Counted from the first letter of the stretch, positions 5,431 to 62,991 are shown. The stretch is 64,000 bases of DNA from Desulfobacterales bacterium (GCA_028277765.1 JANQFQ010000073.1:1-64000), one strand, 5' to 3'. Translations and numbers: made by a program. Notes: a model not told the origin generated them from the sequence alone.

Positions 5431-5445
5431 AGAGATCGTTTAATA

Positions 5446-6462: not shown

Positions 6463-6512
6463 GAAAATAAGTCATCGATAGTTAATACTATTATATTTAT
6501 TTTATTTTTGAG

Positions 6513-6540
6513 TTGACACAGGGCTAGTCTGGAATGTAAT
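6513..6540 (+). promoter_or_regulatory. Sigma70-type promoter candidate
   Basis: TTGACA at 6513-6518, a 16-nt spacer, and TGTAAT at 6535-6540 (5 of 6 matches to TATAAT). It lies about 80 nt upstream of the lipoprotein gene at 6622 in an AT-rich gap of 159 nt. It fits a transcription unit covering the two lipoproteins and the secreted protein. Confidence 0.55.
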
Positions 6541-6621
6541 AGTAACATAATCCGACTACATAATAGGCTAAATCCAAAATAACAGATCTTTGTAAAAGAG
6601 GATTTGTTCAAGGAGGAATTA

Positions 6622-7661: not shown

Positions 7662-7701
7662 TGTATACGACGAAAAAAGAGGAAATAAAAAGGAGATAAC
7701 A

Positions 7702-28002: not shown

Positions 28003-29286
28003 ATGAACAGTATCATATCAGTTGAAAACTTGAGTAAAAAGTATATTATCGGGTATCAGAAACAAGACAAATATAATACATTTCGAGATGCCCTGATGCA
28101 TAATGTACGAAGTGTTTATCAGAAAATTCGCCACCCCCTTTCTTTTAATAAAGAAAAAATTGAGGTAGAAGATTTTTGGGCTTTAAAAAATGTTTCCTTT
28201 GAAGTCAACCAGGGGGACAGACTCGGTATTATAGGGCATAACGGGGCGGGGAAATCTACATTATTAAAAATATTAAGCAGGATTACAGCGCCGACTACCG
28301 GGCGGGCTACTATAAACGGGCGTGTTTCGAGTTTACTTGAAGTCGGTACAGGTTTTCATCCTGAACTTTCAGGAAGAGAAAACATTTTCTTAAATGGTGC
28401 AGTCCTTGGTATGAACAGACATGAAATTAGAAAGAAGTTTGATCAGATTATAGATTTCGCTGAGGTAGAAAAATTTATTGATACACCGATTAAACGATAT
28501 TCTAGTGGTATGTTTGTCAGGCTTGCTTTTTCTGTCGCTGCGCATCTTGATCCTGATATTTTAATTGTGGATGAAGTATTGTCTGTCGGTGATGTTCAAT
28601 TCCAGCGGAAATGCCTTGGTAAAATGGGGGATATCGCCAAAGAAGGAAGAACGATTTTATTTGTCAGTCACAATATGAATGCTGTTGAACAGCTTTGCAC
28701 ATCCGCTATATTACTGGAAGCTGGTGAAATAAAAAAACTTGGGAATGAGGTCGTTTCAATAATAAAAGATTATGTTTTTGTACCGGATGGAACGAGCTAT
28801 CCAAATGAATGGATTAGCAATGATGAAAATACCTACAAAAATGATTATTTCAGGCCATTGGAATTTTATCTTTCAGATACGGAGGGGAAAAAATTGAATA
28901 TGCCCGTCCGTAATGATGCTGAGATGTGGGTAACAATTGTTGGAGAAGTTAAAAAACTCGATACAGCATTGTTGATTGGCTATGAACTGTATGCAGAAGA
29001 CGGCACCCTTTTATATGGGTCTGCATTTACAGATAGCCATCCGGATAATTGGCCGGAAATAAAAAAAGGCAAGACAACCTTGAGATCAAAAATTCCAAAA
29101 CATTTTTTAAATGAAGGGCTTTATAAGCTTGAGCTGAATGGCGGGTTAATGCATAAGGAATGGTTTTTTCTGCCGGGCATGAAAAATCCTGCCATTTTTC
29201 TGGAAATAAAAGGAGGATTAAGTCAGTCACCCTACTGGGTAGATAAACGGCTTGGATTAATCGCACCTATTTTAGATTGGGAATAA
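28003..29286 (+). CDS. wzt: Polysaccharide ABC exporter ATPase with C-terminal carbohydrate-binding domain
   Basis: The ATPase domain covers residues about 1-255. Walker A is GHNGAGKS at 78-85, the signature is YSSGM, and Walker B is ILIVDEVLSVGD, with the switch region LFVSHNM. Residues about 270-427 form the Wzt C-terminal beta-sandwich domain (FRPLEFYLSD, GYELYAEDGTLLYGS, PYWVDKRLGLIAPILDW). In studied O-antigen systems that domain binds the modified chain end and licenses export. A terminal modification made by other genes in the window could therefore be the recognition mark. The ATP-grasp of function is clear; the ligand is not known. Confidence 0.93.
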   Translation: MNSIISVENLSKKYIIGYQKQDKYNTFRDALMHNVRSVYQKIRHPLSFNKEKIEVEDFWALKNVSFEVNQGDRLGIIGHNGAGKSTLLKILSRITAPTTGRATINGRVSSLLEVGTGFHPELSGRENIFLNGAVLGMNRHEIRKKFDQIIDFAEVEKFIDTPIKRYSSGMFVRLAFSVAAHLDPDILIVDEVLSVGDVQFQRKCLGKMGDIAKEGRTILFVSHNMNAVEQLCTSAILLEAGEIKKLGNEVVSIIKDYVFVPDGTSYPNEWISNDENTYKNDYFRPLEFYLSDTEGKKLNMPVRNDAEMWVTIVGEVKKLDTALLIGYELYAEDGTLLYGSAFTDSHPDNWPEIKKGKTTLRSKIPKHFLNEGLYKLELNGGLMHKEWFFLPGMKNPAIFLEIKGGLSQSPYWVDKRLGLIAPILDWE

Positions 29287-29335: not shown

Positions 29336-30268
29336 ATGAAACAAGAAAATTATCAGGAACAGTTTGATAAAGGAAGGCTTAAAGATTCAGGGGATTTTCC
29401 AAAAGTCGTGCTGATCGATTCAACAAGCTTTTGCAATTTGAGATGCTCCATGTGCTGTCACCATGAAATGACAAGAAAAAAGGGTAATATGTCATGGGAG
29501 CTGTTTGTTAAAATTATTGATGAGATAGCCGAACACAATAAAGACGCGAGGATATGGATGGTATTTTTTGGCGACCCTTTTATTCTTAAAAAAACTGATC
29601 CTTCAATTTTTGACATGATTGTATATACAAAAGAGAAAGGCCTGACCGATGTTGTCTTAAATTCAAACGGGAACCTGATGGACAGAACAGCTGCCCAACA
29701 GTTAATCGATTCAGGACTTGACGCAATTTACTTTGGCATTGATGCGTTTACCGAAGAAACCTATTCAAAATACAGAGTTGGCGGAGATTATGAAAAAGTT
29801 AGGGAAAATGTTTTATATCTGCTTAAACTCAAAAAAGAATTAAATGCGAAGAAGCCTGAAGTATATGTGCAGTTCGTTGAGATGGAAGGGAACAAGCATG
29901 AAAAAGACGATTACATCAATTATTGGAAAGACAAGGGCGCCATTGTAAAAATCCGTCCCATGGTCAGCTGGGCAGGAAAAATTGAGGCGTCAAATCTAAC
30001 ATTAAATGATGACAGCCGGTGGCCGTGTCATTGGGCCATGCAGACAATGTCAATTACTGATCAGGGACTGGTTGTAAACTGCGCTGTTGATTTAGACGCC
30101 GGTTTTGTGGCCGGAGACATTACAAAACAGACACTCCGGGAGGTCTGGAATGGCCGTTTAAAGGAAAACAGGAGCTATCATCAAAACAAACAGTGGGATA
30201 CACTTCCGGAGATCTGCAAAAACTGCAAGGACTGGCAAAGTGCGAGATCAGACTACATCAAAAATTAA
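29336..30268 (+). CDS. Radical SAM protein with SPASM-type C-terminus (first)
   Basis: 310 residues. The radical-SAM cluster motif C-x3-C-x2-C is at Cys33, Cys37 and Cys40 (FCNLRCSMCCHH). The barrel continues with VFFGDPF, LNSNGNLM and IYFGIDAF. The C-terminal part has VNCAVD, GDITKQTLREVWNG and CKNCKDW, the pattern of a SPASM domain binding extra iron-sulfur clusters. SPASM enzymes modify peptides, proteins or sugars through carbon radicals. Placement right before an AsnB-type gene and in a sugar locus suggests a sugar or aminoglycoside-like modification. The substrate is unknown. Confidence 0.87.
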   Translation: MKQENYQEQFDKGRLKDSGDFPKVVLIDSTSFCNLRCSMCCHHEMTRKKGNMSWELFVKIIDEIAEHNKDARIWMVFFGDPFILKKTDPSIFDMIVYTKEKGLTDVVLNSNGNLMDRTAAQQLIDSGLDAIYFGIDAFTEETYSKYRVGGDYEKVRENVLYLLKLKKELNAKKPEVYVQFVEMEGNKHEKDDYINYWKDKGAIVKIRPMVSWAGKIEASNLTLNDDSRWPCHWAMQTMSITDQGLVVNCAVDLDAGFVAGDITKQTLREVWNGRLKENRSYHQNKQWDTLPEICKNCKDWQSARSDYIKN

Positions 30269-30282
30269 AGGTTGTTGAATTC

Positions 30283-32148
30283 ATGTGTGGAATAACTGGT
30301 TTTACAGGGGAAGCTGACAAAAACGCTTTGAAAATCATGACGGCTGCGATTACCCACCGAGGTCCTGATGAAGATGGTTTTTACATGGACGGCAGGGTTA
30401 ATTTAGGAATGAGACGCTTGAGCATCATTGATGTTGAAACCGGAAAACAGCCGATTCACAATGAAGACAAAACGATATGGGTTATTATTAACGGTGAGAT
30501 ATACAATTATGTGGAGTTGTGGCCGGAATTAGTGGAAAAGGGGCATTCATTCTATACCGATCATTCCGACAGTGAAGTTGTTGTTCATCTTTATGAAGAA
30601 TTTGGAGATGAATTTGTTCATAAGCTGAATGGCATGTTCGCCATTGCCATTTGGGATACCAGGAAAGAAAGGCTGCTTCTTATTCGCGATAGAATGGGTG
30701 TAAAACCGCTTTTTTATTCTTTGATAGATGGAAAACTGATTTTTTCATCGGAAATAAAATCAATATTAAAGCATCCTGCCTATACAAAAGATGTTAACCA
30801 TGATGCAATATATCATTATTTTACTTTTAAAAATATACCAGCGCCTTTAACGGCATTTAGCAACATCCATTCACTGCTGCCGGGTGAGATGCTTTCCTTC
30901 AGCAGTAATGGAAATATCCAAAGGAATCGCTATTGGAAAGTCAACTACCGTGAGAATTACGAATATGATGAAGCCTATGTAACCCAAACACTTTTTGACA
31001 TTTTAAAAGATGCAGTCAGGCTGCGGATGAGAAGTGATGTCCCTTTTGGTGCATATCTTAGCGGCGGTGTTGATTCGAGCAGTGTCGTCGCACTGATGAC
31101 CGAGTTTTCCAATAAACCTGTAAAAACATTTGCCCTGGGATATGAGGATGAACTGAAAAATAAAGAGGCTGATCTTTACCATGCCAGAAGAGTTGCGAAG
31201 TATTATCATACAGAACATTATGAATATATTATGTCCCATCAGGAATTGATTGATGATATTGGGGCAATTATAGAATCTTTTGATCAGCCTTTTTCCGGTA
31301 CCATATCGACATATTTTCTTTCAAAACTGATAACAAAGCATGTTAAAGTCGCATTATCCGGAGATGGTGCTGATGAGCTGTTTGGGAGTTATCTTTCACA
31401 CAGGACAGCATCTCCTATGTACCATTACAAAAAGCTCTATGAAAAAGTGCTGGACGGAAGCCTTTCGGATGCAGAAAAAAAATTGTTTGATCCGTGTGAT
31501 ACAGGCTTTTTAGAAAACTTGTACAGCAGGACAAAAGGTGACGAAGTTTTATGGCGGCATCAACTCTATTATTTTACCGATCAAGATAAGGAAGATCTGC
31601 TTTCTGACCATTTCAAATCCCGGATAAATGGTTTAAATACATTGTCTCTATTGGAAGGATATTTTAAAGACCTGAGCGCGAAAGACCCTTTGAATCGTAT
31701 TCTTGAAATGGAATGGAATACCCAATTCCCGGATCAAATACTTGCATTTGTTGATTTTTTGTCCATGGCGCATTCTGTGGAAGTGAGATCTCCTTTTATT
31801 GACTACAGGCTGGTTGAATTTTGTGCGACCATACCTGGTCATATGAAAATTAAAAACGGAAATGTAAAGGATATACTGAAAAGAAGCGTTGAGCCTATAT
31901 TGCCTGCCGGTATTACACAGCGGCCAAAAGAGGGTTTTGTGCTGCCGATTTTCGACTGGATGGTTGAAAAATTAAAAGCGTATTGTGTGGATGTTCTGGC
32001 CGTTGAAAGACAGAAAAAGCATAATTATTTTAATAGTGATACGGTTGTTTCTCTATTAAATGATTTTACTTCCGGCAGGAAAAACAATGCCGGTCAGGTA
32101 TGGAATCTGATGATGTTCCAGGTTTGGTGGGAGAAATATTTTGGATAA
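30283..32148 (+). CDS. Glutamine-dependent asparagine synthetase-like amidotransferase (first)
   Basis: The start is placed at ATG 30283 because the next codon must be the Ntn nucleophile Cys2 (MCGITGF). The glutaminase half carries HRGPDEDG and RLSIIDV; the synthetase half has the ATP P-loop YLSGGVDSS at about residue 259, and DGADELFGSY later. 621 residues, full length for AsnB. In O-antigen loci such proteins (for example WbpS) amidate uronic acids to uronamides, which is a likely role here given the uronic-acid genes. Its 3' end overlaps the formyltransferase by 8 nt. Confidence 0.88.
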   Translation: MCGITGFTGEADKNALKIMTAAITHRGPDEDGFYMDGRVNLGMRRLSIIDVETGKQPIHNEDKTIWVIINGEIYNYVELWPELVEKGHSFYTDHSDSEVVVHLYEEFGDEFVHKLNGMFAIAIWDTRKERLLLIRDRMGVKPLFYSLIDGKLIFSSEIKSILKHPAYTKDVNHDAIYHYFTFKNIPAPLTAFSNIHSLLPGEMLSFSSNGNIQRNRYWKVNYRENYEYDEAYVTQTLFDILKDAVRLRMRSDVPFGAYLSGGVDSSSVVALMTEFSNKPVKTFALGYEDELKNKEADLYHARRVAKYYHTEHYEYIMSHQELIDDIGAIIESFDQPFSGTISTYFLSKLITKHVKVALSGDGADELFGSYLSHRTASPMYHYKKLYEKVLDGSLSDAEKKLFDPCDTGFLENLYSRTKGDEVLWRHQLYYFTDQDKEDLLSDHFKSRINGLNTLSLLEGYFKDLSAKDPLNRILEMEWNTQFPDQILAFVDFLSMAHSVEVRSPFIDYRLVEFCATIPGHMKIKNGNVKDILKRSVEPILPAGITQRPKEGFVLPIFDWMVEKLKAYCVDVLAVERQKKHNYFNSDTVVSLLNDFTSGRKNNAGQVWNLMMFQVWWEKYFG

Positions 32149-33010
32149 ACTGGATGTTTTGCTTTTCGGGATGACAGGTTTCGGAAATAATGCAGTTAAT
32201 ATTTTGGAAACAATTGATTATATTCATCTGAAAGGTGTTTTAACAAATAAAAAACATGTTAATCAATTTCCATATTATACCTGTGAAAAAATTCATGACC
32301 TGTGCAGCAGGAAAAACATTAATTTATATGAAGGATACAGTTTAAAAGAGAAAGATACAGAAGACCTGATCAATAAGATTAAACCCGATCTCATTTTTGT
32401 CAGCAGCTTTAATCAAATCATACCGTCAAATATCATAGCGATACCGCCGTATGGGGTTATCAATCTTCATCCGTCGCTGCTTCCTAAATATAGAGGGCCG
32501 ACTCCTGTTTTCTGGGTATTGCGAAACGGCGAAGATGAAACGGGTATTACCGCACATTATATCGAAGATGAAGGAATTGATTCAGGACGAATTATTTGTC
32601 AGCATCGTTTGGCTATTGATAAATCAGATAATAACGGGACACTCAGGATCAAGCTGGGGGATCTGGTTGAAAAGACATTGGCTGATGCCTTGCAGCGGAT
32701 CATCAGTGAAGATGATCTATATGTAGAACAAAATGAAACAGAAGCATCGTATAACCCCAAAAGAACAATTGATGATGCGGTTATAGATGTGACGTACGAT
32801 GTTGATGTCATACAGCGAATCATCAATGCCGCAACACCATATCCGGGTGCTTTGCTGAAGTATAAAGGAACGGAATTTATTGTTACTGCTGTTGAAAAGA
32901 TATCCGGTTCTGATTGTATTGATAATTCGGATCAAAATAAAGAAACAATTTGTGTGAAAACGGATCAGTATATTTTGAAATTTAATATCAAAGGAGCATC
33001 AAAAAAGTGA
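32141..33010 (+). CDS. Formyltransferase-family protein (sugar N-formyltransferase candidate)
   Basis: 289 residues, with a TTG start at 32141; GGGAG (32129-32133) lies 7 nt upstream and no in-frame ATG is closer. The catalytic triad of 10-formyltetrahydrofolate enzymes is complete: Asn108 and His110 in INLHPSLLPKYRGPTP and Asp147 in DEGIDSGRI. The C-terminal domain is shorter than that of tRNA formyltransferases and fits the sugar N-formyltransferases that formylate 3- or 4-amino-6-deoxy sugars. The DegT aminotransferase and 4,6-dehydratase 2-3 kb downstream support this. GT overlap with the next gene is 4 nt (GTGA). Confidence 0.85.
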   Translation: MDKLDVLLFGMTGFGNNAVNILETIDYIHLKGVLTNKKHVNQFPYYTCEKIHDLCSRKNINLYEGYSLKEKDTEDLINKIKPDLIFVSSFNQIIPSNIIAIPPYGVINLHPSLLPKYRGPTPVFWVLRNGEDETGITAHYIEDEGIDSGRIICQHRLAIDKSDNNGTLRIKLGDLVEKTLADALQRIISEDDLYVEQNETEASYNPKRTIDDAVIDVTYDVDVIQRIINAATPYPGALLKYKGTEFIVTAVEKISGSDCIDNSDQNKETICVKTDQYILKFNIKGASKK

Positions 33011-33990
33011 AAAACAAGAATGACGAGAATATTCATCTCCAGGAGTCATACGGCATCAGACCTGAAGCAAAAGAATTTCCAATGATGGTTGTTTTGTCAT
33101 ATGTGTATATATGCAATGCAAAGTGCCCCAATTGCCCCTATAATAATTCGAAGATTCGTGATGATTATAAAGACGCTGTATTTATGCCCGAAGACATTTT
33201 TAAGAAAATTGCGGATGAATGCGGACCATATCATTCAGTAATAAGACTGTCCGGCGGCGGTGAACCGATGCTGCACAAAAATGCAGTGAACGATATCATT
33301 TACGCCAAACGCAAGGGGGCAAAGATTGGTTTGATAACAAATGGTTCAAGGTTTTCTGAAGAGAGCCTGACAGCGATCATTTCTGAAGGCGTTGATGCCA
33401 TTGAATTCAGCGTTGATGCAGGTGATAGTGAGACGTATTCATATGTAAGGCCCGGGCTTGACTGGGATCAACTGAACGTCAATGTGAAAATGGCTGTTGC
33501 TATTCGGAACAAAATCAATTCAGAAACAAAAATTGTGACAAGCATTATTAATCAGAAGGATGTTGATGTTGAAGCTGCTTCGAAGTACTGGGAACAAATT
33601 GTCGATAATGTCCAAATCAGGAAGTATTTGACGTGGGGCTACAACAAGGATGAGTCAGCGGATTCTTCGCCATATCTGCCGCCGGAAAAAAGAGTGCCGT
33701 GTCCATGGTTATTTGAACGTCTTAATATAGATTCACGCGGAGATATAACGCTTTGCGGGGAAGATATTGCATTCAAGGAAAAATTCGGAAATATGCTGGA
33801 AAAATCCATCAAAGAAATTTGGCTGGGTTCTGAGTTTGAATATTTCCGCAAAAAACATTTGGATAATAAAGGAATGGATATACCTATCTGTGCCCAGTGC
33901 CCTGATTGGAAATACCGTTCCTGGAATCATAATTACTGGAAGCTGGTTAAAAATGCTGATCAGCAAAGAATGGAGAGATTGAAGGGATAG
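33007..33990 (+). CDS. Radical SAM protein with SPASM-type C-terminus (second)
   Basis: 327 residues from a GTG start at 33007, with AAGGAG at 32991-32996. The cluster motif is at Cys36, Cys40 and Cys43 (YICNAKCPNCPYN). The barrel shows RLSGGGEPMLH, LITNGSRF and IEFSVDAGD. The C-terminal cysteines in LCGEDIAF and CAQCPDWKYRSW match SPASM spacing. It is related in design to the protein encoded at 29336 but clearly diverged, so the pair may act on different positions of one substrate. The stop/start overlap with the formyltransferase gene ties it to that operon. Confidence 0.87.
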   Translation: MKNKNDENIHLQESYGIRPEAKEFPMMVVLSYVYICNAKCPNCPYNNSKIRDDYKDAVFMPEDIFKKIADECGPYHSVIRLSGGGEPMLHKNAVNDIIYAKRKGAKIGLITNGSRFSEESLTAIISEGVDAIEFSVDAGDSETYSYVRPGLDWDQLNVNVKMAVAIRNKINSETKIVTSIINQKDVDVEAASKYWEQIVDNVQIRKYLTWGYNKDESADSSPYLPPEKRVPCPWLFERLNIDSRGDITLCGEDIAFKEKFGNMLEKSIKEIWLGSEFEYFRKKHLDNKGMDIPICAQCPDWKYRSWNHNYWKLVKNADQQRMERLKG

Positions 33991-34021
33991 AAGTCATTTC
34001 TAAAGCTCGTCGAAAATCCTT

Positions 34022-34711
34022 ATGATGATAGGTATATTACAACCCGGATATCTTCCCTGGCTTGGTTTTTTTGAACAGTTATACTACAGCGATGTCTTTG
34101 TGCTGTATGATGATGTCCAGTATGACAAACACGGTTGGAGAAACAGAAACAGAATAAAGACCGCGAATGGAGAGCAGTGGTTGACCGTACCTGTCATTTA
34201 CAGCTTGAAAAATCCCGCGCCGATTAAAGATGTAAAAATTGATAATAAACAGAAATGGGCCAAAAAGCATTTGTCTTCACTTCGTCAAAATTATTCCAAG
34301 GCATCTTATTATAAAAAATATATCGGCTTATTTGAAGATATTTACAGCATGGATTGGGAATGCCTGGCTGATATGGATATATATATTATTCTTAAACTGG
34401 CAGAAATACTTGGGATGCAGGACAAGAAAATTGTTCGTTCCTCAGAATTAAATATTGAAGACGATGATAAAATAGAAAGGCTTATCAAGATCTGTAAATA
34501 CTTTCAGGCGAATTCTTTTTATGAAGGTGCGGCCGGAAAAAATTACATTGAAAAGGATGTCTTTGAAAAGGCAGGGATCAAGGTGAAATTCCAGGATTAT
34601 GCCCATCCGGTTTACAATCAGCTATACGGTGAATTTATTCCCTATCTATCCATAGTAGATCTGATTTTCAATCATGGCGAAAATAGCTTACCTATATTGA
34701 TTAACGCATAA
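34022..34711 (+). CDS. WbqC-family protein
   Basis: 229 residues. The N-terminal motif GILQPGYLPWLGFFEQL and the following DDVQYDKHGWRNRNRIK are the hallmarks of the WbqC family, present in many O-antigen and capsule loci. Its biochemistry is unproven; a role with amino-sugar acylation has been suggested only by context. No membrane span or signal peptide. ATG at 34022 or 34025 could be used; no strong ribosome site is seen for either. Confidence 0.85.
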   Translation: MMIGILQPGYLPWLGFFEQLYYSDVFVLYDDVQYDKHGWRNRNRIKTANGEQWLTVPVIYSLKNPAPIKDVKIDNKQKWAKKHLSSLRQNYSKASYYKKYIGLFEDIYSMDWECLADMDIYIILKLAEILGMQDKKIVRSSELNIEDDDKIERLIKICKYFQANSFYEGAAGKNYIEKDVFEKAGIKVKFQDYAHPVYNQLYGEFIPYLSIVDLIFNHGENSLPILINA

Positions 34712-34730
34712 AGTAACATTAGGAGGAGTA

Positions 34731-35771
34731 ATGAATAAAACTGTTTTAGTAACAGGCGGGGCTGGTTTTATAGGAAGTAATTTTGTCAGATATTTATATA
34801 ATAAATATCCTGACTATAAAATTATTATACTGGATGCACTCACGTATGCAGGTGATATAGAGAACCTGCCGGTAAATATAAATATTGAAAACGATAATGA
34901 CAGGATCGCTTTCTGGTACGGTAATGTGAGAAACGGGGAGCTCGTGGATACCCTTGTTTCTCAGTCTGATATTGTCGTTCATTTCGCTGCGGAAACTCAT
35001 GTTACACGATCAATATATGACAATTTTATTTTTTTTGAGACCGATGTTATCGGCACCCAGCGTATTGCAAATGCTGTATTGAAATATAGGGATCAGATCG
35101 AGCGATTTATCCATATTTCTACTTCAGAAGTATACGGAACGGCTCAGACGGATGTCATGTCTGAGGATCATCCCATTCTCCCAATGAGTCCTTATGCATC
35201 GGCAAAAGCAGGTGCTGACAGGCTTGTCTATTCATACTGGGCAACATATGAAATTCCCACTGTGATTATTCGGCCATTTAATAATTATGGCCCATTTCAG
35301 CACCTGGAGAAGGCCGTACCCCGTTTTATAACGAGTTGCATGCTGGACGAACCGATACGCGTTCATGGTGACGGCAGCGCTGCACGGGATTATATCTTTG
35401 TAGAAGATGTCTGCGGGGGAATTGATTTGATAATGAATGCAGATATTGAAAAAGTAAAAGGTGAGATATTTAATCTGGCTTCCGGACAACACCGCACCAT
35501 ATTGTCTATTGCCCAGGATGTGGTAAGGCTTATGGGAAAGGACGAATCCATCATTAACTTTGTCGGTGACCGCCTGGGGCAGGTTTTCAGGCATACCGGC
35601 GATATCACCAAGATCGGGGATACGTTTGACTGGCGGCCTGAAACTGAATGGGAAGGCGGCCTTGAACGGACCATACAGTGGTACGAAGATAATGAGGAAT
35701 GGTGGAAAAAGCAGATCTGGATGAGAACGGTTCCTGTTATTACAAAAACCGGAAAGCGCGAGTTGCATTAA
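34731..35771 (+). CDS. Nucleotide-sugar 4,6-dehydratase-like SDR (RmlB family)
   Basis: 346 residues with AGGAGG just upstream of ATG 34731. The cofactor motif is GGAGFIGS. HFAAETHVTRSIYDN and DALTYAGDIENL are RmlB-like. The YxxxK pair is Tyr155/Lys159 (YASAK). The usual RmlB TDEVYG is here STSEVYG (residues 130-136), so the Asp before the catalytic Glu is replaced by Ser. This could mean a dehydratase with another donor, or a decarboxylase/epimerase. With the aminotransferase that follows and the formyltransferase upstream, it could supply a 4-keto sugar for amination. Confidence 0.85.
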   Translation: MNKTVLVTGGAGFIGSNFVRYLYNKYPDYKIIILDALTYAGDIENLPVNINIENDNDRIAFWYGNVRNGELVDTLVSQSDIVVHFAAETHVTRSIYDNFIFFETDVIGTQRIANAVLKYRDQIERFIHISTSEVYGTAQTDVMSEDHPILPMSPYASAKAGADRLVYSYWATYEIPTVIIRPFNNYGPFQHLEKAVPRFITSCMLDEPIRVHGDGSAARDYIFVEDVCGGIDLIMNADIEKVKGEIFNLASGQHRTILSIAQDVVRLMGKDESIINFVGDRLGQVFRHTGDITKIGDTFDWRPETEWEGGLERTIQWYEDNEEWWKKQIWMRTVPVITKTGKRELH

Positions 35772-35819
35772 GTAAAATGGCAACTCTCTTCATATACTAT
35801 TCATTAGGATATTTAAAAT

Positions 35820-36965
35820 ATGGAAAATAATAAAGTAGAATTTTTTAAGCATTGTTTGGAAGATGGAGATATTCAACTGGCCAACGAGGTCATGCAATCG
35901 ATTTTTCTTACAACCGGGCCTAGAGTTGCCGAGTTTGAAAAGAAGTTTTCAGAATATCTTAATATTAACGAAGCTGTTGGGTTGACCAGCTGCACCGGGG
36001 CAATTCATCTCGCATTATTGCGATATGGGATAGGAACGGATGATGAAGTTATCACGACACCAATGACATTTGCTGCAACAGCCGCAGCTATTTTACAGTC
36101 GGGTGCTAAACCGGTATTTGTAGATGTGTGCCCCGAATGCGGTATGATTCTGCCTGAAACAGTTGAAACGGCGATAACAGAAAAAACAAAAGCCATCGTG
36201 CCGGTCCATCTTTTTGGGCGAATGGTAGATATGCCTGGATTTTCTAAACTGGCCAAGAAATATAATCTGGTATTAATTGAGGATGCTGCACACTGTATCG
36301 AAGGAATGAGATATGGTATACGGCCAGGCCAACTCAGTGAGGCAGCCTGTTTTTCTTTTTATGCCACAAAAAATATGACATGTGGAGAAGGAGGCGCTTT
36401 GGTGTGTAATCATGTTGAAGACGCGGAATGGTATCGATCCGCTCGGCATCACGGCATTTCAAAGAATGCATCTTACCGCTATGCCAAAAAATATGAGCAC
36501 TGGGATATGGAAATGATGGGCTGGAAATATAATATGTATGACATTCAGGCGGCGCTGTTGATTAATCAGATAGACCGTCTTGAACAGAATCTGCAAAAAC
36601 GTCATAATCTGGAGGTGCTTTACCGGGAACTATTGAGTGACATAGAAGGATTGGATTTTTTACAGTTCCCGGATGACAATGAAAAAAGCGGCCATCATCT
36701 GTTCACAGTACTACTGCCGATGCGTTGTGAACGGGATGAAATAATACTCGAACTGCAGAATAAGGGAATCGGTTGCGCTGTGAATTATCGATCCATTCAT
36801 ACCCTTAGCTTTTTTCGAGACACCTACGGCTATAAAAAGACAGATTTTCCTGTTTCATATGAAATCGGGCAGAGAACACTAACGCTTCCGCTTTATCCGA
36901 AGTTGACTGAAGACGAAGTTAAGCGGGTATCAGAATCTCTTCACTCAGTTATTGATAGGGACTAG
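35820..36965 (+). CDS. DegT/DnrJ/EryC1/StrS sugar aminotransferase (first)
   Basis: 381 residues. The PLP-binding lysine is Lys184 in SFYATKNMTCGEGG. EDAAHCIEG and the earlier LTSCTGAIHLALL confirm a sugar aminotransferase of fold type I. It transfers an amino group, usually from glutamate, to a 3- or 4-keto nucleotide sugar. It lies 49 nt after the RmlB-like gene; the pair plus the formyltransferase makes a plausible dTDP- or UDP-linked N-formylamino-6-deoxyhexose route. It might alternatively provide the WlbC step for the uronic acid. Confidence 0.9.
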   Translation: MENNKVEFFKHCLEDGDIQLANEVMQSIFLTTGPRVAEFEKKFSEYLNINEAVGLTSCTGAIHLALLRYGIGTDDEVITTPMTFAATAAAILQSGAKPVFVDVCPECGMILPETVETAITEKTKAIVPVHLFGRMVDMPGFSKLAKKYNLVLIEDAAHCIEGMRYGIRPGQLSEAACFSFYATKNMTCGEGGALVCNHVEDAEWYRSARHHGISKNASYRYAKKYEHWDMEMMGWKYNMYDIQAALLINQIDRLEQNLQKRHNLEVLYRELLSDIEGLDFLQFPDDNEKSGHHLFTVLLPMRCERDEIILELQNKGIGCAVNYRSIHTLSFFRDTYGYKKTDFPVSYEIGQRTLTLPLYPKLTEDEVKRVSESLHSVIDRD

Positions 36966-36973
36966 AAGAAATA

Positions 36974-37945
36974 ATGAAACATTACTTGTTCATTCTAATG
37001 CTGTTATTTTTTGTCGCTGCCGGATGTTCTTCAGAGCAGCGTTCCGGAACAGATCATGATGACATCTTCAGTTTTGTCGTTATGGGGCACATCCGGTCTG
37101 ACTTCCAGGATCAGCTAAGTCCGGCTTTTCTAAAGGCTGTCAGGAGAATAAAAAATGATAACCTCCGTCCCAGATTTATCGTGCTGTTAGGAGATTCCAT
37201 TATCGGTTATCATAGTAATATTGAAGACTATAAAAAGGAATGGTTGCTGTTAAAAAATTATTGCAGAAAAGAAAAACTCCAGGTTTTTGTTGTCCCGGGA
37301 AATCACGATTACAGCACCGAAGAAGAAAGAAAAAATTTTGAAGAAATATGGAATAAGACCTATTTTTCCTTTAAATATAAAAATTCAAAATTTTTAATTC
37401 TTGATTCAAATCTGGATTGGTCGAAAAAGTGGTCCCAACGGCATTTTCAATTCACTGACGTGCCCGCCACATCAACCTCAACTGACTTTTTGTGGGGAAC
37501 AGCGCCATACAATATGTTCGGCTCTCCAATCACGGGTGACCAATTGGCGTTTCTTAAAAATACGTTACATAATAAAGATAATATGGAACTGCGTGGCGTT
37601 TTACCTGCCAACAGAGACTTTTATTATGGAGACAATGATTACCCGGCGATTAAGGATATTCAATACAATTTTATTTTTGTCCACCATATTCTTTTTTCTT
37701 CTGATACAGAAAAAGGAATGCCTAACTATAATAACAATAACTGGTTTGCCGAAATTCATCCCATGCTGATTGGCAAAAATGTCTATGTGTTTGGTGGTGA
37801 TGCGCCACACACCAGTGAACAGGCAAATTATTCAAAAGATGGTGTAACATACGCTTCATCTTTTACAAGCGGGGATGATGCTTTTTATCTTGTCAGGGTT
37901 TATAAGGATAAAGTAGATGTTGAGACGATAAAGATAAATCATTGA
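36974..37945 (+). CDS. Calcineurin-like metallophosphoesterase lipoprotein
   Basis: 323 residues with a lipoprotein signal ending VAAGC (Cys18). The mature part has the calcineurin-like landmarks in order: FVVMGHIRSD (in place of the usual GDxH), LLGDSIIGYH, VPGNHDY, VHHILF, and GGDAPH, enough to hold a two-metal centre. It would act in the periplasm, anchored to a membrane. The first motif is unusual, with GHIRSD instead of an Asp-x-His pair, so one metal ligand is uncertain. Position within sugar genes suggests phosphate removal from a polysaccharide or lipid precursor. Confidence 0.75.
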   Translation: MKHYLFILMLLFFVAAGCSSEQRSGTDHDDIFSFVVMGHIRSDFQDQLSPAFLKAVRRIKNDNLRPRFIVLLGDSIIGYHSNIEDYKKEWLLLKNYCRKEKLQVFVVPGNHDYSTEEERKNFEEIWNKTYFSFKYKNSKFLILDSNLDWSKKWSQRHFQFTDVPATSTSTDFLWGTAPYNMFGSPITGDQLAFLKNTLHNKDNMELRGVLPANRDFYYGDNDYPAIKDIQYNFIFVHHILFSSDTEKGMPNYNNNNWFAEIHPMLIGKNVYVFGGDAPHTSEQANYSKDGVTYASSFTSGDDAFYLVRVYKDKVDVETIKINH

Positions 37946-37987
37946 TAAAGACCATCGTTATGTTATGCGCTGCCGGAGAGAATTCTG

Positions 37988-39205
37988 TTGAGCTATTTGA
38001 TTTTTACAAATTTTGAAGTCGGCGGGATACCCTATAAGATCGCTGATATTTTAAACAACCATGGATTGAAAACTTATTACATTTCCATAGCAAATAAAAA
38101 CACCGGGCATGATTCAAAGGCTTTTCATTATGGTGACAAGGAGGAATCCTGGGAATTGTCTCATTTTTTTACGGATTTGAAATTTCCTGATGAGGTTATA
38201 AGCACTTTACAAAAGATCCGTAAGGAATTAACCATTCAATCATGTTTTGCAACGGGATGGAAGTCTTATGTGTTACGGAAGGCCGGTTTCAATTATGCTT
38301 ATTGGTGTTTTGGCGCTGACCTTGATCAAATATGTTTTGAGCCATTTTTTAAAAAAAAATATCCTTTGTGGAAAAAATTTATACAATTTCCATTTTTAAA
38401 ATATTTAAATAAAAAACCGGTTCGACTGGAAGCCAGAATGTCGATTCAATATTCAGATTCGTTGATAATATCGCCATATCAAAAGGATACGTTTAACAAA
38501 CTTGACATAAAAAAGAGATTGAATTTTCTGCCACATATATTAAAAATTGATGATTTTGTTAAATTAAAAAAAGAAAAAGAAGAGAGCCGGAAAAAGATTT
38601 GTGAAAGGATAGGAGCAACGGACTATATTTTTTCATCTACGCGTCATATTTGGTGCGGGAATCAAAGCGTTCTGACGGATAACAAGGGAAATGACATTAT
38701 TTTAAATGCTTTTAAAACATATATATCGGAATATAACAATCCGGGTGTTAAACTTGTTTTTGTCGAAAAGGGAGAAGATGTCGCTGCTTCAAAATCTCTA
38801 TCCAGGGAAATGGGCATTGCGGACATGATTGTCTGGCTGCCTGAAATGCCAAGGGATGAATTGTGGGATATTTACAAGGGTGCTGCTCTCTGCATGGGAC
38901 AATTTGCAACACCATGTATTACCTATTCAGTTTTGGAACCGATCGTTTGCGCTACACCCTGTATTTCCTATTATCATAAAAATCATATCATTTCAGCAAA
39001 TGTTCCATATTATGAAGAAATGCCTCCGGTGATGGACAGTAAAGAACCGGATGAGATTGCTGAGTTGATCAACAGTATCCTCTCTGACAAAAAGTTTAAG
39101 GACGATCTGGTGTACAAGTCATGGGCATGGGCCAGGGACTTTTGTTCTGAAGAAGAATTCGTAAAATCTTTCCAAAAGATGTTTGTCCATCAGGAAGCTC
39201 AATAA
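37988..39205 (+). CDS. Glycosyltransferase-like protein, GT-B fold
   Basis: 405 residues from TTG 37988. GGAGAG ends 7 nt upstream and no other in-frame start exists after the stop at 37946. The C-terminal half resembles GT4 transferases: FSSTRHIWCG, IVWLPEMPRDELWDIYKGA and YSVLEPIVCATPCI, the last in the place of the E-x7-E donor-binding motif. The N-terminal half is weakly conserved. It is soluble and probably peripheral to the membrane. Specificity unknown. It separates the phosphoesterase gene from the second AsnB-like gene. Confidence 0.65.
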   Translation: MSYLIFTNFEVGGIPYKIADILNNHGLKTYYISIANKNTGHDSKAFHYGDKEESWELSHFFTDLKFPDEVISTLQKIRKELTIQSCFATGWKSYVLRKAGFNYAYWCFGADLDQICFEPFFKKKYPLWKKFIQFPFLKYLNKKPVRLEARMSIQYSDSLIISPYQKDTFNKLDIKKRLNFLPHILKIDDFVKLKKEKEESRKKICERIGATDYIFSSTRHIWCGNQSVLTDNKGNDIILNAFKTYISEYNNPGVKLVFVEKGEDVAASKSLSREMGIADMIVWLPEMPRDELWDIYKGAALCMGQFATPCITYSVLEPIVCATPCISYYHKNHIISANVPYYEEMPPVMDSKEPDEIAELINSILSDKKFKDDLVYKSWAWARDFCSEEEFVKSFQKMFVHQEAQ

Positions 39206-39237
39206 TAGCGTTAAAAAAATGTGATATCAGTATCTGT

Positions 39238-41181
39238 ATGTGTGGTATTTGCGGAATTATAGGCGGCTGCGACCGTAACCAGATTGACGCAATGGTAAAG
39301 GCAATGCATCATCGGGGGCCTGATGATGCCGGTGTTTTTATCAATGAGCGTGTGGCTCTCGGCATGTCACGTCTTGCGGTTATTGATTTGACACCAAAAG
39401 CTCATCAGCCCATGCAGAATGATGATGCCTCTTTATGGATTGTTTATAATGGGGAAACTTATAACTTCAAGGATGAACGTGATATTTTAATTGAAAAGGG
39501 ATACGTATTCAGGTCGACATCGGACACAGAGGTCGTTCTAAAGATGTACAAAGCGTATGGTGACGATTTTCTGATAAGAATGCGCGGTATTTTTTCATTA
39601 GCTATTTATGATAAACGAAAAGGGAAAGACCGTTTGCTGCTGGCGAGAGATCCTTTAGGCGTAAAACCTTTGATTTATGCAAATGTGGGCAGCAAATTTG
39701 TTTTCAGTTCTGAAATGAAATCTATCCTGGCAAGCGGGCTGGTGGAGAGAAAATTTGATCCAGAGTCGCTACGCCTTTTATTGTCGTATGGTTCAATTAC
39801 TCAGCCGAGGACAGCCGTTTCCGGTGTAAACATGCTTTTGCCGGGCCATCGAATGATTGTCAAGTCCGGATCGACGCGAATCGAAAGATTCTGGCAGATT
39901 AGAAAGAACACTGTCAGAGATTTGCGCGATATGCCATATGACAAGCAGGTTGATTATATGCGAACCTCGCTTAATGAAGCTATCCGTTTGCAGATGGTGA
40001 GTGATGTTCCTATTGGTGCTTTTTTAAGCGGGGGAGTGGATTCAACATTGTTGGTTGCATTGATGTCAAGAATGAGCGGTGCCAAGGTCAAGACATTTTC
40101 TGTGGGGTTTGAACAGGAAGGGCGTGATATAGATGAAACTGATGATGCTGAACGTGTTGCAAAATATCTTGGCACAGAGCATTTTAATGTTATGGTTACC
40201 GGCGAAGAAGTGCGTGATAGAATTAACCATATTGCCAGAGCACTTGACCAGCCTTCAGTCGATGGTGTGAATTCATATTTTGTTTCTATGGCTGCCAGGC
40301 AAGAAGTCACTGTGGCCATATCTGGAACAGGCGGAGATGAACTTTTTGCCGGGTATCCATGGTTTATCAATATGCTTAAAGCGTATGGTAATAAAGAAAA
40401 CGATTACTTAACAATTAAAAAGATAATCGCTTCGATTTTACAGCACCATTTATTTAATTCATTAGCCCTTGGAAGATTTGAAAAATATCTTGATCGAGCA
40501 AGAGCAAGTTCCGGTTTTGTTTCCCGTTATGCAAGGCAATATAAAATATTTGGGACTAAACGTTCTAACGACATACTTCATCCAAAATTGAGACATCAGG
40601 CACAAGTTGGACGAGAGCCGTCTTACGATATTGTATTCACTGATGAATTTTCATCAGGTTTGCCTGTTGAAAGGGTTTCAGCGTTGTGTTTAAGGGGATA
40701 TACGCAGAATCAACTTCTTCGGGATATTGATGCGGTCTCAATGGCCCATTCACTTGAAGTACGTGTTCCATATTTAGATCCTGTAATCGTGGATACAGCT
40801 TTTTCTTTACCTGAAAACACAAAAATCGGGGATGTCAATAATATTACAAATGCTATCAATGCTACATACAAAGAAAGCGGAGCAAAAAAAATACTGATTG
40901 ATGTTGGCCGGGGGCTTTTGCCTGATGGGATAGCACTTCAAAAAAAACGTGGCTTTGGTATGCCTTTTGAAACATGGTTAAAAGGGCCCATGCAAGAGAT
41001 TCTTGAGGATACACTATCTGAGAAAACAGTTATAAATCGTGGTCTGTTCGATGCACCCATGGCGAAACATCTTAAAAAGCGTTTTTTAACAGGAAAATCG
41101 AGCTGGGCTTTTCCATGGTTGTTGATGATGATTGAGTTGTGGTGCCGGGAGGTACTTGATAATACGTCACATATGAATTAA
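39238..41181 (+). CDS. Glutamine-dependent asparagine synthetase-like amidotransferase (second)
   Basis: 647 residues, starting MCGICGIIGG so that Cys2 is the nucleophile. The glutaminase domain has HRGPDDAG and SRLAVIDL; the synthetase domain has the P-loop FLSGGVDST at about residue 263 and GTGGDELFAGY. It differs throughout from the AsnB-like protein at 30283, so it is a distinct lineage and not a recent copy. Two such enzymes in a sugar locus suggest two amidated carboxylates, or one amidation plus an ATP-dependent ligation reaction. It ends the radical-SAM/amidotransferase block. Confidence 0.88.
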   Translation: MCGICGIIGGCDRNQIDAMVKAMHHRGPDDAGVFINERVALGMSRLAVIDLTPKAHQPMQNDDASLWIVYNGETYNFKDERDILIEKGYVFRSTSDTEVVLKMYKAYGDDFLIRMRGIFSLAIYDKRKGKDRLLLARDPLGVKPLIYANVGSKFVFSSEMKSILASGLVERKFDPESLRLLLSYGSITQPRTAVSGVNMLLPGHRMIVKSGSTRIERFWQIRKNTVRDLRDMPYDKQVDYMRTSLNEAIRLQMVSDVPIGAFLSGGVDSTLLVALMSRMSGAKVKTFSVGFEQEGRDIDETDDAERVAKYLGTEHFNVMVTGEEVRDRINHIARALDQPSVDGVNSYFVSMAARQEVTVAISGTGGDELFAGYPWFINMLKAYGNKENDYLTIKKIIASILQHHLFNSLALGRFEKYLDRARASSGFVSRYARQYKIFGTKRSNDILHPKLRHQAQVGREPSYDIVFTDEFSSGLPVERVSALCLRGYTQNQLLRDIDAVSMAHSLEVRVPYLDPVIVDTAFSLPENTKIGDVNNITNAINATYKESGAKKILIDVGRGLLPDGIALQKKRGFGMPFETWLKGPMQEILEDTLSEKTVINRGLFDAPMAKHLKKRFLTGKSSWAFPWLLMMIELWCREVLDNTSHMN

Positions 41182-41227: not shown

Positions 41228-41911
41228 ATGAATACAAATTTATATGATATTGCACAGACAGGGATAGCCATATCAATTTTTGATCTGATTATTGCGCTAA
41301 CCCTGTCAATTATGATTGGATTAGGTGTTGCACTGGTTTATCGCTGGACGCATCGTGGTCTAAACTATGAAAGGTCATTTTTGATAACTCTTGTAATGGT
41401 TGGGCCGATTGTAGCAGTTATCATGATGCTGATTGGAAGTAATCTGGCATTATCTTTGGGAATGGTTGGCGCATTATCAATCATTCGATTTCGTACGGTT
41501 ATAAAAGACACACGAGATATGATATACCTTTTCTGGATGATTGCTGTCGGTCTTGGTTGCGGAACATATAACTGGAAAGCAATAGCAGTCGCCTGTATTT
41601 TTATTGCAGTCATTTTGGTGTTTCTTCATTCTTTTGAATATGGAAAATCACGCCATTCTGATTATGTCCTTGTAATTTCAGGTAGTGCCGAAGAGGCGAT
41701 TGAAATAATTAAGGATAGAATAAAATCAGTTGTGTTTGATTTGCAATTACGTTCACTGGATGTTAGTGAAACCGAATGGGAAGCTGTTTTTGAAATTAGA
41801 ATGGCAAAGAAAGAAATACTCCAAGAAGAGGTTTTGGTCAATGACTTAAAAAATATTTCAGGTATAAGCAAAGTCAATCTTCTTGCGCCTCAACTGGCAT
41901 TACCTTTATAG
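41228..41911 (+). CDS. DUF4956 membrane protein
   Basis: 227 residues; GGAGGG precedes ATG 41228. About four membrane helices lie in residues 15-140, and between them the polar conserved segment SLGMVGALSIIRFRTVIKD, typical of DUF4956. A soluble ferredoxin-like C-terminal domain (VLVISGSAEEAIEIIKD onward) follows. DUF4956 proteins usually neighbour VTC-type polyphosphate polymerases and CotH proteins, as they do here. Role unproven; perhaps a sensor or coupling subunit for the polymerase. Confidence 0.85.
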   Translation: MNTNLYDIAQTGIAISIFDLIIALTLSIMIGLGVALVYRWTHRGLNYERSFLITLVMVGPIVAVIMMLIGSNLALSLGMVGALSIIRFRTVIKDTRDMIYLFWMIAVGLGCGTYNWKAIAVACIFIAVILVFLHSFEYGKSRHSDYVLVISGSAEEAIEIIKDRIKSVVFDLQLRSLDVSETEWEAVFEIRMAKKEILQEEVLVNDLKNISGISKVNLLAPQLALPL

Positions 41912-41922
41912 CAAGGAAAACA

Positions 41923-44814
41923 ATGAGATTAAGCGATTCATTATTTAAAAAATTAGTTGTACTGAATACCATTTGTGTAATGCTGATATCACTATTGGGT
42001 GTTGTTTGGGTGAGTATCAATAAAGATGCACTCCTGAAAAGGATAAAGAGTGCAACCGAACTGGAGTTGCATCAATCTAAAATTATCGGTCCATCTGTTT
42101 CAGATACGACATTTTCCTCATATGATATAAAAATCAATCCTGCATATTTACGTGATATTCAGCTGTTAATTGAAAAAATGGCTGTTAAAGGAGTGATGGC
42201 AAATGAAGATAAAAAATGGTATCCGGTTCGATTTATTGACAAGGGACAGGAATACAAGGGGAAAATCAGGTTGCGTGGTGATTTGCCAAATCATTGGATT
42301 AACAGTAAGAAATCATGGCGTTTAAAATTTGACAGAGAAAAGCTTTTTAATGGATATCGTGCATTAAATTTTGTTATTCCCAGCGACAAAGCTTATGAAA
42401 TTGAAAAAATTGCATATGATTTGGCAAAGGAGGAAGGCCTTTTAGCTCCGGATTCAGGTTTTCTTAGACTCAGAATGAATGGCGTCGATACAGGTCTTTA
42501 TTTCTGGTATGAAAATAACAGCAGTGAGATGCTGGAGAAGTGTCAATATCCTGAAGGTGAAATTTTTCGTGATAAAAACACTTGGACACAAACCAGACCA
42601 ACAGGTTACAGCTTTTTCAATAACTGGGAAGAGAATACCGGCGTGTGGCTTTATCCCAGCAATTATGCCGCTACGATTACAAAAGATCCAACGATCGGAT
42701 TTTATTATGAACGATGGGATTACCTGCTTTCCTTATTACGGGATGGGAGTACGCAACAATTTGAAAAAGAGATACCGCATCTCATTGATATGGATAAATA
42801 TCTTAGATGGAATGCCTTGACATGGTTGTTCGGCAGCGTGCACTCACATTTCGGAGATAATCTGCGATGGTATTATGATAATACTCGCGGACTGTTTGAA
42901 CCAATCATGTATGATGTGTTCCGGTATCCTATTGATAACCTGCAGAAAGGAACATTTGAAGCTAAAGAGTACGATCCTTTGGCAAAAAAGATTTTACAAA
43001 ATCCGGAATTTCGAGATCAACGGAATAAATACTTATGGCACTATGTTAATACACTGCAACCTGAAATTATTCAACGGTCGGAACAGGTATTTAATACCAT
43101 CCGGCCTTTTTTGTTCACAGGTATAGATGCTGAAAAGCCCAAAAAAGTGAATAAGTTTCACCGTGAAACCATAAATATCCTTAATCAGAACAGAGATAAT
43201 ATTAAAGGCAACCTGGAATTTTCAAGAGTTTTTATTACCCCGGAAATCACCTTAAACGGAAAAATGCCCGTCTTATCAATAAAGTTGATTCCTGATGCAT
43301 TGGCAAAAATTAAAATCAAGCAGTTAAGATTAGCCTTTAAACGACCTGTTGCAGAGGATACCCGCGATATAAAAGTCTATAAAGAGAAAACTCCGGACGC
43401 AGGTCTTTCTACCGTTCCAGTATCACTATCGGCAAAAGGCAATGAAATAATTTTTACTTTTAAAAACCTAACGATCCAGACACCGGTTGATAAAAATCTT
43501 GTACCGTATCCAGAAGAAGTTATATTTTTCTTTGAAATGCCTCAATCCATGTCTTCTGAATGGAAAACCCCGGGATTTTTTACAGAACTAAAATTGACAT
43601 TTGAAAATGACATAACCCATGAGATTATCAAAGACAACAATCTGTATCAGACACCTGTTGAATATAAATTCCAGAAGAAGATGATGACAAATTTATTTTT
43701 ACCTGTTGATACATTTATTGAAAAAAGCGGACTGCCTTTTAAGATACGAGAGAAGGAACTCATTCTTGAAAGGGGTACTTATAGTGTCAATCAGGATTTA
43801 ATTGTTCCTGTAGATTACAGGCTGCATATCCATTCAGGTGTTATTTTAAAAATGGGAACGGGGGTGAGCATCATAACCTATCAGCCTTTAAAAATTGCTG
43901 GAACCAGGGAAAGCAGGGTTGTCATTGAAGCAAAGGATAGTCAAAAAGCATGGGGTTCTCTATCTGTTATCAATGCAAAAGAGATGTCGGAGATAGACTT
44001 TTTAAATATTAGCGGTGGCAGCGAAGACCGGATTAGTGGCCTTTATGTTTCCGGACAATTCTGTTTTTATAGTTCAGATGTAAAATTGCGGCATTGTACT
44101 ATTTCAGATGGAAAGGCAGACGATGGGCTTAATATTAAAAACGCAACTATGACCATTATGAATTGTGAATTCATCGATAACAGTGCAGATGCATTTGACG
44201 GGGACTGGGTGAAGGGAAAAATCAGTCATTCACAATTTAAAAATAATGGAGGAGATGGCATTGATCTTTCCGGATCTGTCGTTATTACTGAGAATAATCT
44301 TTTGTCCGGAATGGGAGACAAAGCATTAAGCATCGGTGAAAAGAGCACTTTCTACGGGATTAATAATGTTATCAGAAATTCAAATATTGGTGTTGCATCC
44401 AAAGATTTATCCAATACAAATCTTTATGCAAGTGTTTTTTACGCAAACACAACGGCGATAGCGTTATACCGTAAAAAACAGACATTCGGTGGCGGCCAGG
44501 GCTTTGTTGCAAGTACATTGTTCTGGAAAAATACAGCTGATTTCGAATTGGATCGTGAATCAACACTTAAACTGGTTGGCGTAGGCCTTGAGAATTGGTC
44601 ACCGCAGGAGGGTATTGAAACCGAAGATATACGGGTTGGCCCCATCTCCGAAAGCTATCGAACCATCGGAGAAGCTGATTTTTCTTATATAAATTCAAAG
44701 GAATCTCCATTCAAAAAAGGACCAGTAATACACCTACAGCCGGTTGAAGGCGTTTCACTGCCTGAGTTCTCAAAACATCCAATTGGGCTTACTTGTTCAC
44801 TGGAGATTGAATGA
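41923..44814 (+). CDS. CotH-like kinase domain fused to a parallel beta-helix
   Basis: 963 residues, with one N-terminal membrane anchor (about 12-32) leading to an extracytoplasmic body. Residues about 100-400 match CotH: GKIRLRGDLPNHWI, KKSWRLKF, GLYFWYENNS and the acidic IMYDVFRYPID segment. Residues about 680-900 form a right-handed beta-helix with ISDGKADDGLNIK, NCEFIDNSADAFDGDW and HSQFKNNGGDGIDL. CotH proteins are atypical kinases that phosphorylate secreted proteins. Here the beta-helix may target polysaccharide. The stop overlaps the VTC gene by 4 nt. Catalytic residues were not verified individually. Confidence 0.82.
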   Translation: MRLSDSLFKKLVVLNTICVMLISLLGVVWVSINKDALLKRIKSATELELHQSKIIGPSVSDTTFSSYDIKINPAYLRDIQLLIEKMAVKGVMANEDKKWYPVRFIDKGQEYKGKIRLRGDLPNHWINSKKSWRLKFDREKLFNGYRALNFVIPSDKAYEIEKIAYDLAKEEGLLAPDSGFLRLRMNGVDTGLYFWYENNSSEMLEKCQYPEGEIFRDKNTWTQTRPTGYSFFNNWEENTGVWLYPSNYAATITKDPTIGFYYERWDYLLSLLRDGSTQQFEKEIPHLIDMDKYLRWNALTWLFGSVHSHFGDNLRWYYDNTRGLFEPIMYDVFRYPIDNLQKGTFEAKEYDPLAKKILQNPEFRDQRNKYLWHYVNTLQPEIIQRSEQVFNTIRPFLFTGIDAEKPKKVNKFHRETINILNQNRDNIKGNLEFSRVFITPEITLNGKMPVLSIKLIPDALAKIKIKQLRLAFKRPVAEDTRDIKVYKEKTPDAGLSTVPVSLSAKGNEIIFTFKNLTIQTPVDKNLVPYPEEVIFFFEMPQSMSSEWKTPGFFTELKLTFENDITHEIIKDNNLYQTPVEYKFQKKMMTNLFLPVDTFIEKSGLPFKIREKELILERGTYSVNQDLIVPVDYRLHIHSGVILKMGTGVSIITYQPLKIAGTRESRVVIEAKDSQKAWGSLSVINAKEMSEIDFLNISGGSEDRISGLYVSGQFCFYSSDVKLRHCTISDGKADDGLNIKNATMTIMNCEFIDNSADAFDGDWVKGKISHSQFKNNGGDGIDLSGSVVITENNLLSGMGDKALSIGEKSTFYGINNVIRNSNIGVASKDLSNTNLYASVFYANTTAIALYRKKQTFGGGQGFVASTLFWKNTADFELDRESTLKLVGVGLENWSPQEGIETEDIRVGPISESYRTIGEADFSYINSKESPFKKGPVIHLQPVEGVSLPEFSKHPIGLTCSLEIE

Positions 44815-62965: not shown

Positions 62966-62991
62966 ATAAATGTACAGATCAAGGAGGGATT

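Follow-up and report, generated by a model that had tools for sequence, protein, structure and literature searches.

A recurrent seven-gene cassette with two radical SAM/Twitch proteins in a Desulfobacterales polysaccharide island, a candidate pathway for a decorated amino sugar

In some O-antigens, for example those of Shigella dysenteriae 7 and E. coli O121, Qui4N bears an N-acetylglycyl or another aminoacyl group, and we know of no radical SAM step in their synthesis. In the literature account of the Bordetella O-antigen we found nothing on amides or formyl groups. A surface sugar decorated with both an amino acid and an amide is documented in Porphyromonas gingivalis (PMC7468200). In the Wbp/Vim linking-sugar pathway of P. 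gingivalis and Tannerella forsythia the amine, which a deacetylase is proposed to release first, carries a seryl or glycyl group, and a carboxamide is made by an AsnB-type enzyme (PMC7468200). A similar logic is found in bacillithiol synthesis (BshA-BshB-BshC), in which a PIG-L deacetylase (BshB) and an amino acid ligase (BshC) act on a sugar amine; moreover, NmbA N-methylates the cysteine of bacillithiol, a precedent for the capping of an amino-acid nitrogen (PMC12719100). For the radical SAM proteins, the closest described enzyme is BtrN, a Twitch dehydrogenase of the butirosin pathway (PMC9012708).

Here we analyse 64,000 nt of a Desulfobacterales bacterium (GCA_028277765.1 JANQFQ010000073.1:1-64000), the whole of which is referred to as the window. 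The genome (4.89 Mb in 156 contigs) belongs to the phylum Desulfobacterota/Thermodesulfobacteriota, and the window constitutes a large polysaccharide island with a Wzm/Wzt exporter, glycosyltransferases and nucleotide-sugar enzymes.

Gene content and spread of the cassette

Gene identities were obtained by ORF calling and Pfam. The ten genes that a sequence-only reading had named between 29336 and 41181 were all present, in the order it gave and all on the plus strand. The features are listed below, with the evidence for each.

27171-27995 and 28003-29286, plus strand: Wzm/Wzt-type ABC polysaccharide exporter, directly upstream of the cassette (sequence)
29336-30268, plus strand: rSAM1, Radical_SAM and SPASM in Pfam (Pfam, alignment, tree, BtrN profile match)
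30283-32148, plus strand: AsnB1, GATase_7 and Asn_synthase (Pfam; true start MCGITG at 30283)
32141-33010, plus strand: formyltransferase, Formyl_trans_N (Pfam, N-H-D residues; start codon uncertain)
33007-33990, plus strand: rSAM2, Radical_SAM and SPASM in Pfam (Pfam, alignment, match to the BtrN auxiliary-cluster domain)
34022-34711, plus strand: WbqC, candidate amino acid:amino-sugar ligase (Pfam, AF2 model, Foldseek, neighbours)
34731-35771, plus strand: SDR, nearest to dTDP-glucose 4,6-dehydratase (profile scores, active-site residues)
35820-36965, plus strand: DegT/PseC/ArnB-like PLP sugar aminotransferase (Pfam, SF-ATK lysine)
36974-37945, plus strand: metallophosphoesterase lipoprotein, outside the conserved cassette (ORF, Pfam)
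37988-39205, plus strand: glycosyltransferase, outside the conserved cassette (ORF, Pfam)
39238-41181, plus strand: AsnB2, outside the conserved cassette (ORF, Pfam)

The complete Wzm at 27171 is preceded, at 25777-26127, by an ABC-2 (Wzm-like) permease fragment of about 116 codons that resembles a second, disrupted exporter gene. Directly past the block, at 41228-45521, DUF4956, CotH kinase with beta-helix and VTC-domain genes stand in a row.

Protein searches were run on 96 relatives, on 395 genomes of the phylum and on a GTDB contig set. Close relatives of rSAM1 or rSAM2 were found in few genomes (7/96 and 6/96 of the relatives; 5/395 in the phylum, own genome included), nearly always in the same gene company. 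We considered as the conserved unit, hereafter the cassette, the seven genes at 29336-36965 (rSAM1, AsnB1, formyltransferase, rSAM2, WbqC, SDR and DegT). The same set was found in loci L033, L034, L018, L020, L056 and L058, and part of it in L035, L019, L021 and L053. The order rSAM1-AsnB-cap-rSAM2-WbqC-DH (cap being the variable gene after AsnB, DH the dehydratase), with single insertions allowed, was kept in the window, L033, L018 and L020, hence in two phyla. The arrangements were as follows (FT, formyltransferase; GT2, glycosyltransferase).

G002 (L033): DegT-rSAM1-AsnB-FT-rSAM2-rSAM2'-WbqC-SDR, the first of the two rSAM2 copies having one stop codon in its match
UBA2188 (L018; Syntrophaceae, same GTDB phylum): DegT-rSAM1-AsnB-methyltransferase-rSAM2-NTP transferase-WbqC-SDR
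Riflebacteria (L020): rSAM1-AsnB-GNAT-rSAM2-WbqC-SDR
G054 (L034): AsnB-FT-rSAM1-rSAM2-GT2-WbqC-SDR-DegT
G003 (L035): FT-rSAM1-rSAM2-WbqC, without AsnB, SDR or DegT nearby
G205 (L056) and G143 (L058): most of the set
Melainabacteria/Gastranaerophilales (L019, L021): parts of the set

The order Wzm-Wzt-rSAM1 was also found in L032 (identities 58/60/63%). The expectation that a SPASM, AsnB, formyltransferase and WbqC set would recur in other genomes was therefore borne out, and the view of the ten genes as one unit held for the first seven but not for the last three: the phosphoesterase lipoprotein, the glycosyltransferase and AsnB2 had no specific counterparts in the compared cassette loci. The second AsnB, which had been counted in the set, falls outside it, since the conserved unit ends at the aminotransferase.

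Identities between Riflebacteria and Desulfobacterota were about those within Desulfobacterota (SDR 71-77%, WbqC 62-69%), so the sequences suggest that 29336-36965 is probably a horizontally mobile cassette. WbqC lay within a few genes of the rSAM2 relatives in 10/10 loci examined, although it was found in only 64/297 sampled genomes of the phylum (about one fifth), so the grouping goes beyond chance; many of the loci come from metagenome-assembled genomes, and our neighbour counts are of raw loci, shared descent included.

Related arrangements were seen elsewhere. On plasmid pDCAR1 of Solidesulfovibrio carbinolicus (L131, 6863-10702), DegT, radical SAM, methyltransferase and WbqC genes stand in a row and transposases flank the plasmid stretch; this is likely a mobile relative, and its host is a named strain with a sequenced plasmid. 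On pSVL1 of Streptomyces vietnamensis (L138, 953-6335) a side-by-side pair of radical SAM/SPASM genes occurs together with UDP-galactopyranose mutase, WbqC and DegT genes, and here the pairing logic occurs outside Gram-negative surface loci, in an actinomycete. A second module, near AsnB in two unrelated genomes (L058, 10902-15132; L022, 9944-15147), consists of an rSAM1-like protein, an SDR epimerase, an ATP-grasp protein whose N-terminus resembles PylC, and a protein of the Metallophos_2 family.

The radical SAM pair and WbqC

The C-x3-C-x2-C core motif was confirmed in both radical SAM proteins (Cys 33/37/40 in rSAM1, 36/40/43 in rSAM2) and was invariant in both orthologue alignments, but the SPASM-like tails attributed to them were not: the four tail Cys (231/249/294/297 and 232/250/295/298) correspond to a single auxiliary cluster, as in one-cluster Twitch proteins, with a spacing of 18/45/3 in both window proteins and in most orthologues. 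A two-cluster SPASM reading is ruled out, as the tails have four Cys only and the second-cluster Cys are absent after the CxxC. In the maximum-likelihood tree the two groups were apart (97/87), each spanning phyla; rSAM1 and rSAM2 are separate co-travelling clades. Neither falls in a curated subfamily of known substrate, a check that the sequence-only reading had proposed. Precisely, no NCBIfam radical SAM model was near its cut-off, the best being TIGR04317 with 110 and 87 bits against 380.

BtrN was the best PDB profile match of both proteins, a distant one (E about 1e-15). The alignment of rSAM2 with the auxiliary-cluster domain of BtrN was gapless and the 18/45/3 spacing was identical. For rSAM1, the AF2 model (mean pLDDT 83) gave against BtrN a target-length TM-score of 0.75-0.77, the best of the solved matches; anSME, SuiB, DesII, BlsE and EpeE were also significant structural matches, so the fold alone names neither a reaction nor a substrate.

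Paired enzymes of this type had been thought unusual in polysaccharide loci, which did not hold: the unrelated loci L037, L038, L039, L097 and L112 carry such enzymes. Radical SAM enzymes of this type are not rare in polysaccharide loci of the phylum, merely uncharacterised, and the open literature searched gave nothing relevant on SPASM enzymes in such loci.

The AF2 model of WbqC had a mean pLDDT of 92 and a pTM of 0.89. The top solved fold in Foldseek was BshC, with a probability of 0.98 but a weak match (E 0.012, TMq 0.44), and the lower matches (a cytidylyltransferase, a NadD-type adenylyltransferase and TyrRS) were all nucleotide-binding Rossmann-like folds. No solved chain was matched by WbqC in the sequence search, and profile comparison (hhalign) against the deposited 4wbd sequence and three annotated BshC genes gave a probability under 1%, so that WbqC as a BshC by homology is unsupported; we therefore considered the tie as a lead and not as membership.

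We then considered the neighbours of WbqC in 39 scorable loci, L108, L110, L120 and L127 being outside the count as their frame was caught by neither profile nor motif. A PIG-L motif was directly adjacent in 13/39, which are not independent counts as they are partly one inherited operon type, and DegT was nearby in 17/39. PIG-L was called by a short motif, except in loci backed by Pfam or annotation; the adjacent PIG-L so backed are those of L089 and L105 (both Pfam) and of the Mycobacterium, Streptomyces and Vibrio phage loci. The pair was found in Mycobacterium branderi and in Streptomyces NBC_00239, where a class II aminoacyl-tRNA-synthetase-like gene lies two genes on, and PIG-L was also near WbqC in the pseudaminic-acid locus of Mariluticola. 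A Twitch-type radical SAM gene was nearby in 9/39 WbqC loci and missing in the other 30/39; as WbqC is near rSAM2 in every locus examined and most WbqC loci have no radical SAM gene, rSAM2 depends on WbqC and not the reverse.

Several single loci deserve mention. In the window cassette no PIG-L stands beside WbqC. The genome has two PIG-L genes only: one adjoins, with a DegT gene, a second WbqC (L089, contig C70, 4980-7601), in a stretch without a radical SAM gene, and the other is in the window, far from WbqC (62953-63630). In the Vibrio phages L147 (MN794238.1) and L148 (ON075462.1), both at 3324-8162, PIG-L and WbqC overlap by one base and are followed by an ORF without assigned family and by genes for a methyltransferase, another WbqC-like protein and a glycosyltransferase, a set that perhaps serves an aminoacylated sugar on phage DNA or capsid. 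In Proteus mirabilis H63 WbqC is two genes from DegT, in an unannotated stretch.

No function was given for WbqC in the open literature searched, and a DNA-similarity search for a WbqC-bearing E. coli O-antigen locus whose structure is known gave no match. The likeness of the model to BshC is a fold-level lead to a ligase role, for which the PIG-L partners would be independent support, and the early suggestion of peptide-like decorations fits this evidence. That WbqC is a widespread class of ATP-dependent amino acid:amino-sugar ligases, and that the cassette makes an aminoacyl sugar whose skeleton is edited by the radical SAM pair, is a tentative proposal with the odds against it.

Proposed pathway and competing explanations

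We propose, with a probability of roughly 0.4, that 29336-36965 supplies an exported surface polysaccharide with a decorated amino sugar, which would be aminoacylated, capped, amidated and oxidised by radical chemistry. Its observed basis is the gene set, the recurrence across phyla, the two Twitch clades, the cluster spacing and the AsnB, formyltransferase and DegT motifs; the catalytic steps, every one of which we infer, may be the following. SDR and DegT would make an NDP-amino-deoxyhexose, to whose amine WbqC would join an amino acid in an ATP-dependent reaction, as BshC does with GlcN-malate. The formyltransferase (in other genomes the acetyl- or methyltransferase) would cap the alpha-amine of the amino acid, and AsnB1 would amidate a carboxylate of the conjugate, giving a carboxamide. 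Each of rSAM1 and rSAM2 would perform one two-electron C-H oxidation of BtrN/anSME type on the aminoacyl-sugar, with the amino-acid part or its immediate vicinity as the most likely site. A glycosyltransferase would then add the sugar to the chain, for export by Wzm/Wzt.

We favour the aminoacyl side as the radical target for two reasons: each rSAM2 seen was accompanied by WbqC, which often occurs without radical SAM genes, and an ATP-grasp ligase adjoins rSAM1 in L022, a small MAG and the sole rSAM1 genome without a WbqC match. In the slot between AsnB and rSAM2 some genomes have a formyltransferase, others a GNAT or a methyltransferase, and in L019 a hexapeptide protein follows AsnB; since these amine-capping chemistries interchange in one slot, a free amine being blocked is suggested. 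The N-H-D triad noted early on is present in the formyltransferase (NLHPSLLP, DEGIDSG). As had been read, both AsnB proteins have the glutaminase Cys2 behind the start Met; both also have the LSGGVDS loop, so AsnB1 is a complete amidotransferase; its orthologues in L033, L018, L020 and L058 are 60-68% identical. DegT has its SF-ATK lysine intact. The SDR scored 337 bits, below the curated RmlB cut-off of 365, and a true RmlB (475 bits) is elsewhere in the genome. The YxxxK of the SDR is kept, and T-S-E (S-S-E in two) replaces T-D-E in 9/9 orthologues; as the Asp of RmlB is missing, even 4,6-dehydration by the SDR is unproven. Elsewhere in the genome there are five other formyltransferase-family genes, the best being a 323-residue frame on another contig, and with the separate RmlB they make the cassette copies look dedicated. 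On the other side, the WbqC-BshC tie is one of fold only and the cassette itself has no PIG-L, and in G003 the radical SAM pair and WbqC occur without AsnB, SDR and DegT nearby.

The strongest rival, which we consider doubtful, places the oxidation on the sugar ring: the pair would oxidise a ring C-OH to a ketone (or epimerise it), a DegT enzyme would aminate it to a di- or triamino sugar, and WbqC and the formyltransferase would acylate the amines. Both proteins have their best solved sequence match in BtrN, an aminocyclitol dehydrogenase, with the identical auxiliary spacing and the best TM-score, and a DegT is in the cassette; in butirosin synthesis the ketone made by BtrN is then aminated by a DegT-type enzyme. 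The match to BtrN is distant, however, and rSAM2 tracks WbqC and not any one dehydratase, the SDR being different or absent nearby in L023, L035, L056 and L109. An N-formylated, amidated amino sugar of uronamide kind, without any amino acid, is unlikely; AsnB1 would in this case be WbpS-like and WbqC would have an unrelated role. AsnB homologues are indeed known as uronamide synthases (WbpS = PGN_1234, PMC7468200), and the closest solved relatives of the formyltransferase act on sugar amines (ArnA). No NDP-sugar 6-dehydrogenase was found on the window's contig (C81) or seen in the cassettes, which disfavours a simple uronamide, although two strong copies elsewhere in the genome could supply the uronic acid; furthermore, neither the radical SAM pair nor the pairing of WbqC with PIG-L would be explained.

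Far less probable is a small diffusible molecule or modified peptide as product, not part of a glycan. Clusters for peptide natural products commonly contain two radical SAM/SPASM-like proteins and AsnB homologues, and WbqC is on Streptomyces plasmids too, but the block showed no gene for a precursor peptide, a carrier protein or an NRPS, and the cassette stands behind Wzm/Wzt in a long run of glycosyltransferase and sugar genes, with relatives also in polysaccharide loci. To a chance neighbourhood we give practically no weight: islands of this kind are mosaics and the final three block genes are unshared, but the first seven recur in other genera and in another phylum and the radical SAM clades co-travel, a recurrence by which chance is refuted for 29336-36965.

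If the proposed aminoacyl-sugar pathway is true, two dedicated radical SAM/Twitch enzymes on an aminoacyl sugar would be a surface-glycan chemistry not described before. BtrN-like radical oxidation is known from antibiotic and cofactor pathways, and the co-travelling pair would bring it into cell-surface glycans. The assignment of WbqC as an amino-acid ligase acting after PIG-L or DegT is testable, and would annotate many polysaccharide loci.

Comparison with known systems

The proposed product would resemble the Qui4N O-antigens, whose 4-amino-4,6-dideoxyhexose bears a capped amino acid. Butirosin synthesis, as the cassette, employs DegT-type aminotransferases. The Wbp/Vim pathway shares with our proposal the aminoacylated amine and the AsnB-type carboxamide; it differs in that the amino acid is credited to VimA, which is GNAT-like, on a diaminouronic acid, and as described it lacks the radical SAM, formyltransferase and WbqC genes, all present in the cassette (PMC7468200). 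In bacillithiol synthesis the BshB-BshC pair parallels WbqC-PIG-L, and capping by NmbA is comparable with the swappable cap slot (PMC12719100), whereas its product is a cytosolic thiol and not a glycan, AsnB, DegT and radical SAM are absent, and BshC and WbqC have no sequence homology. Finally, BtrN has the core and one four-Cys cluster with the same spacing as rSAM1 and rSAM2 (PMC9012708), but it is distant in sequence and belongs to an antibiotic cyclitol pathway.
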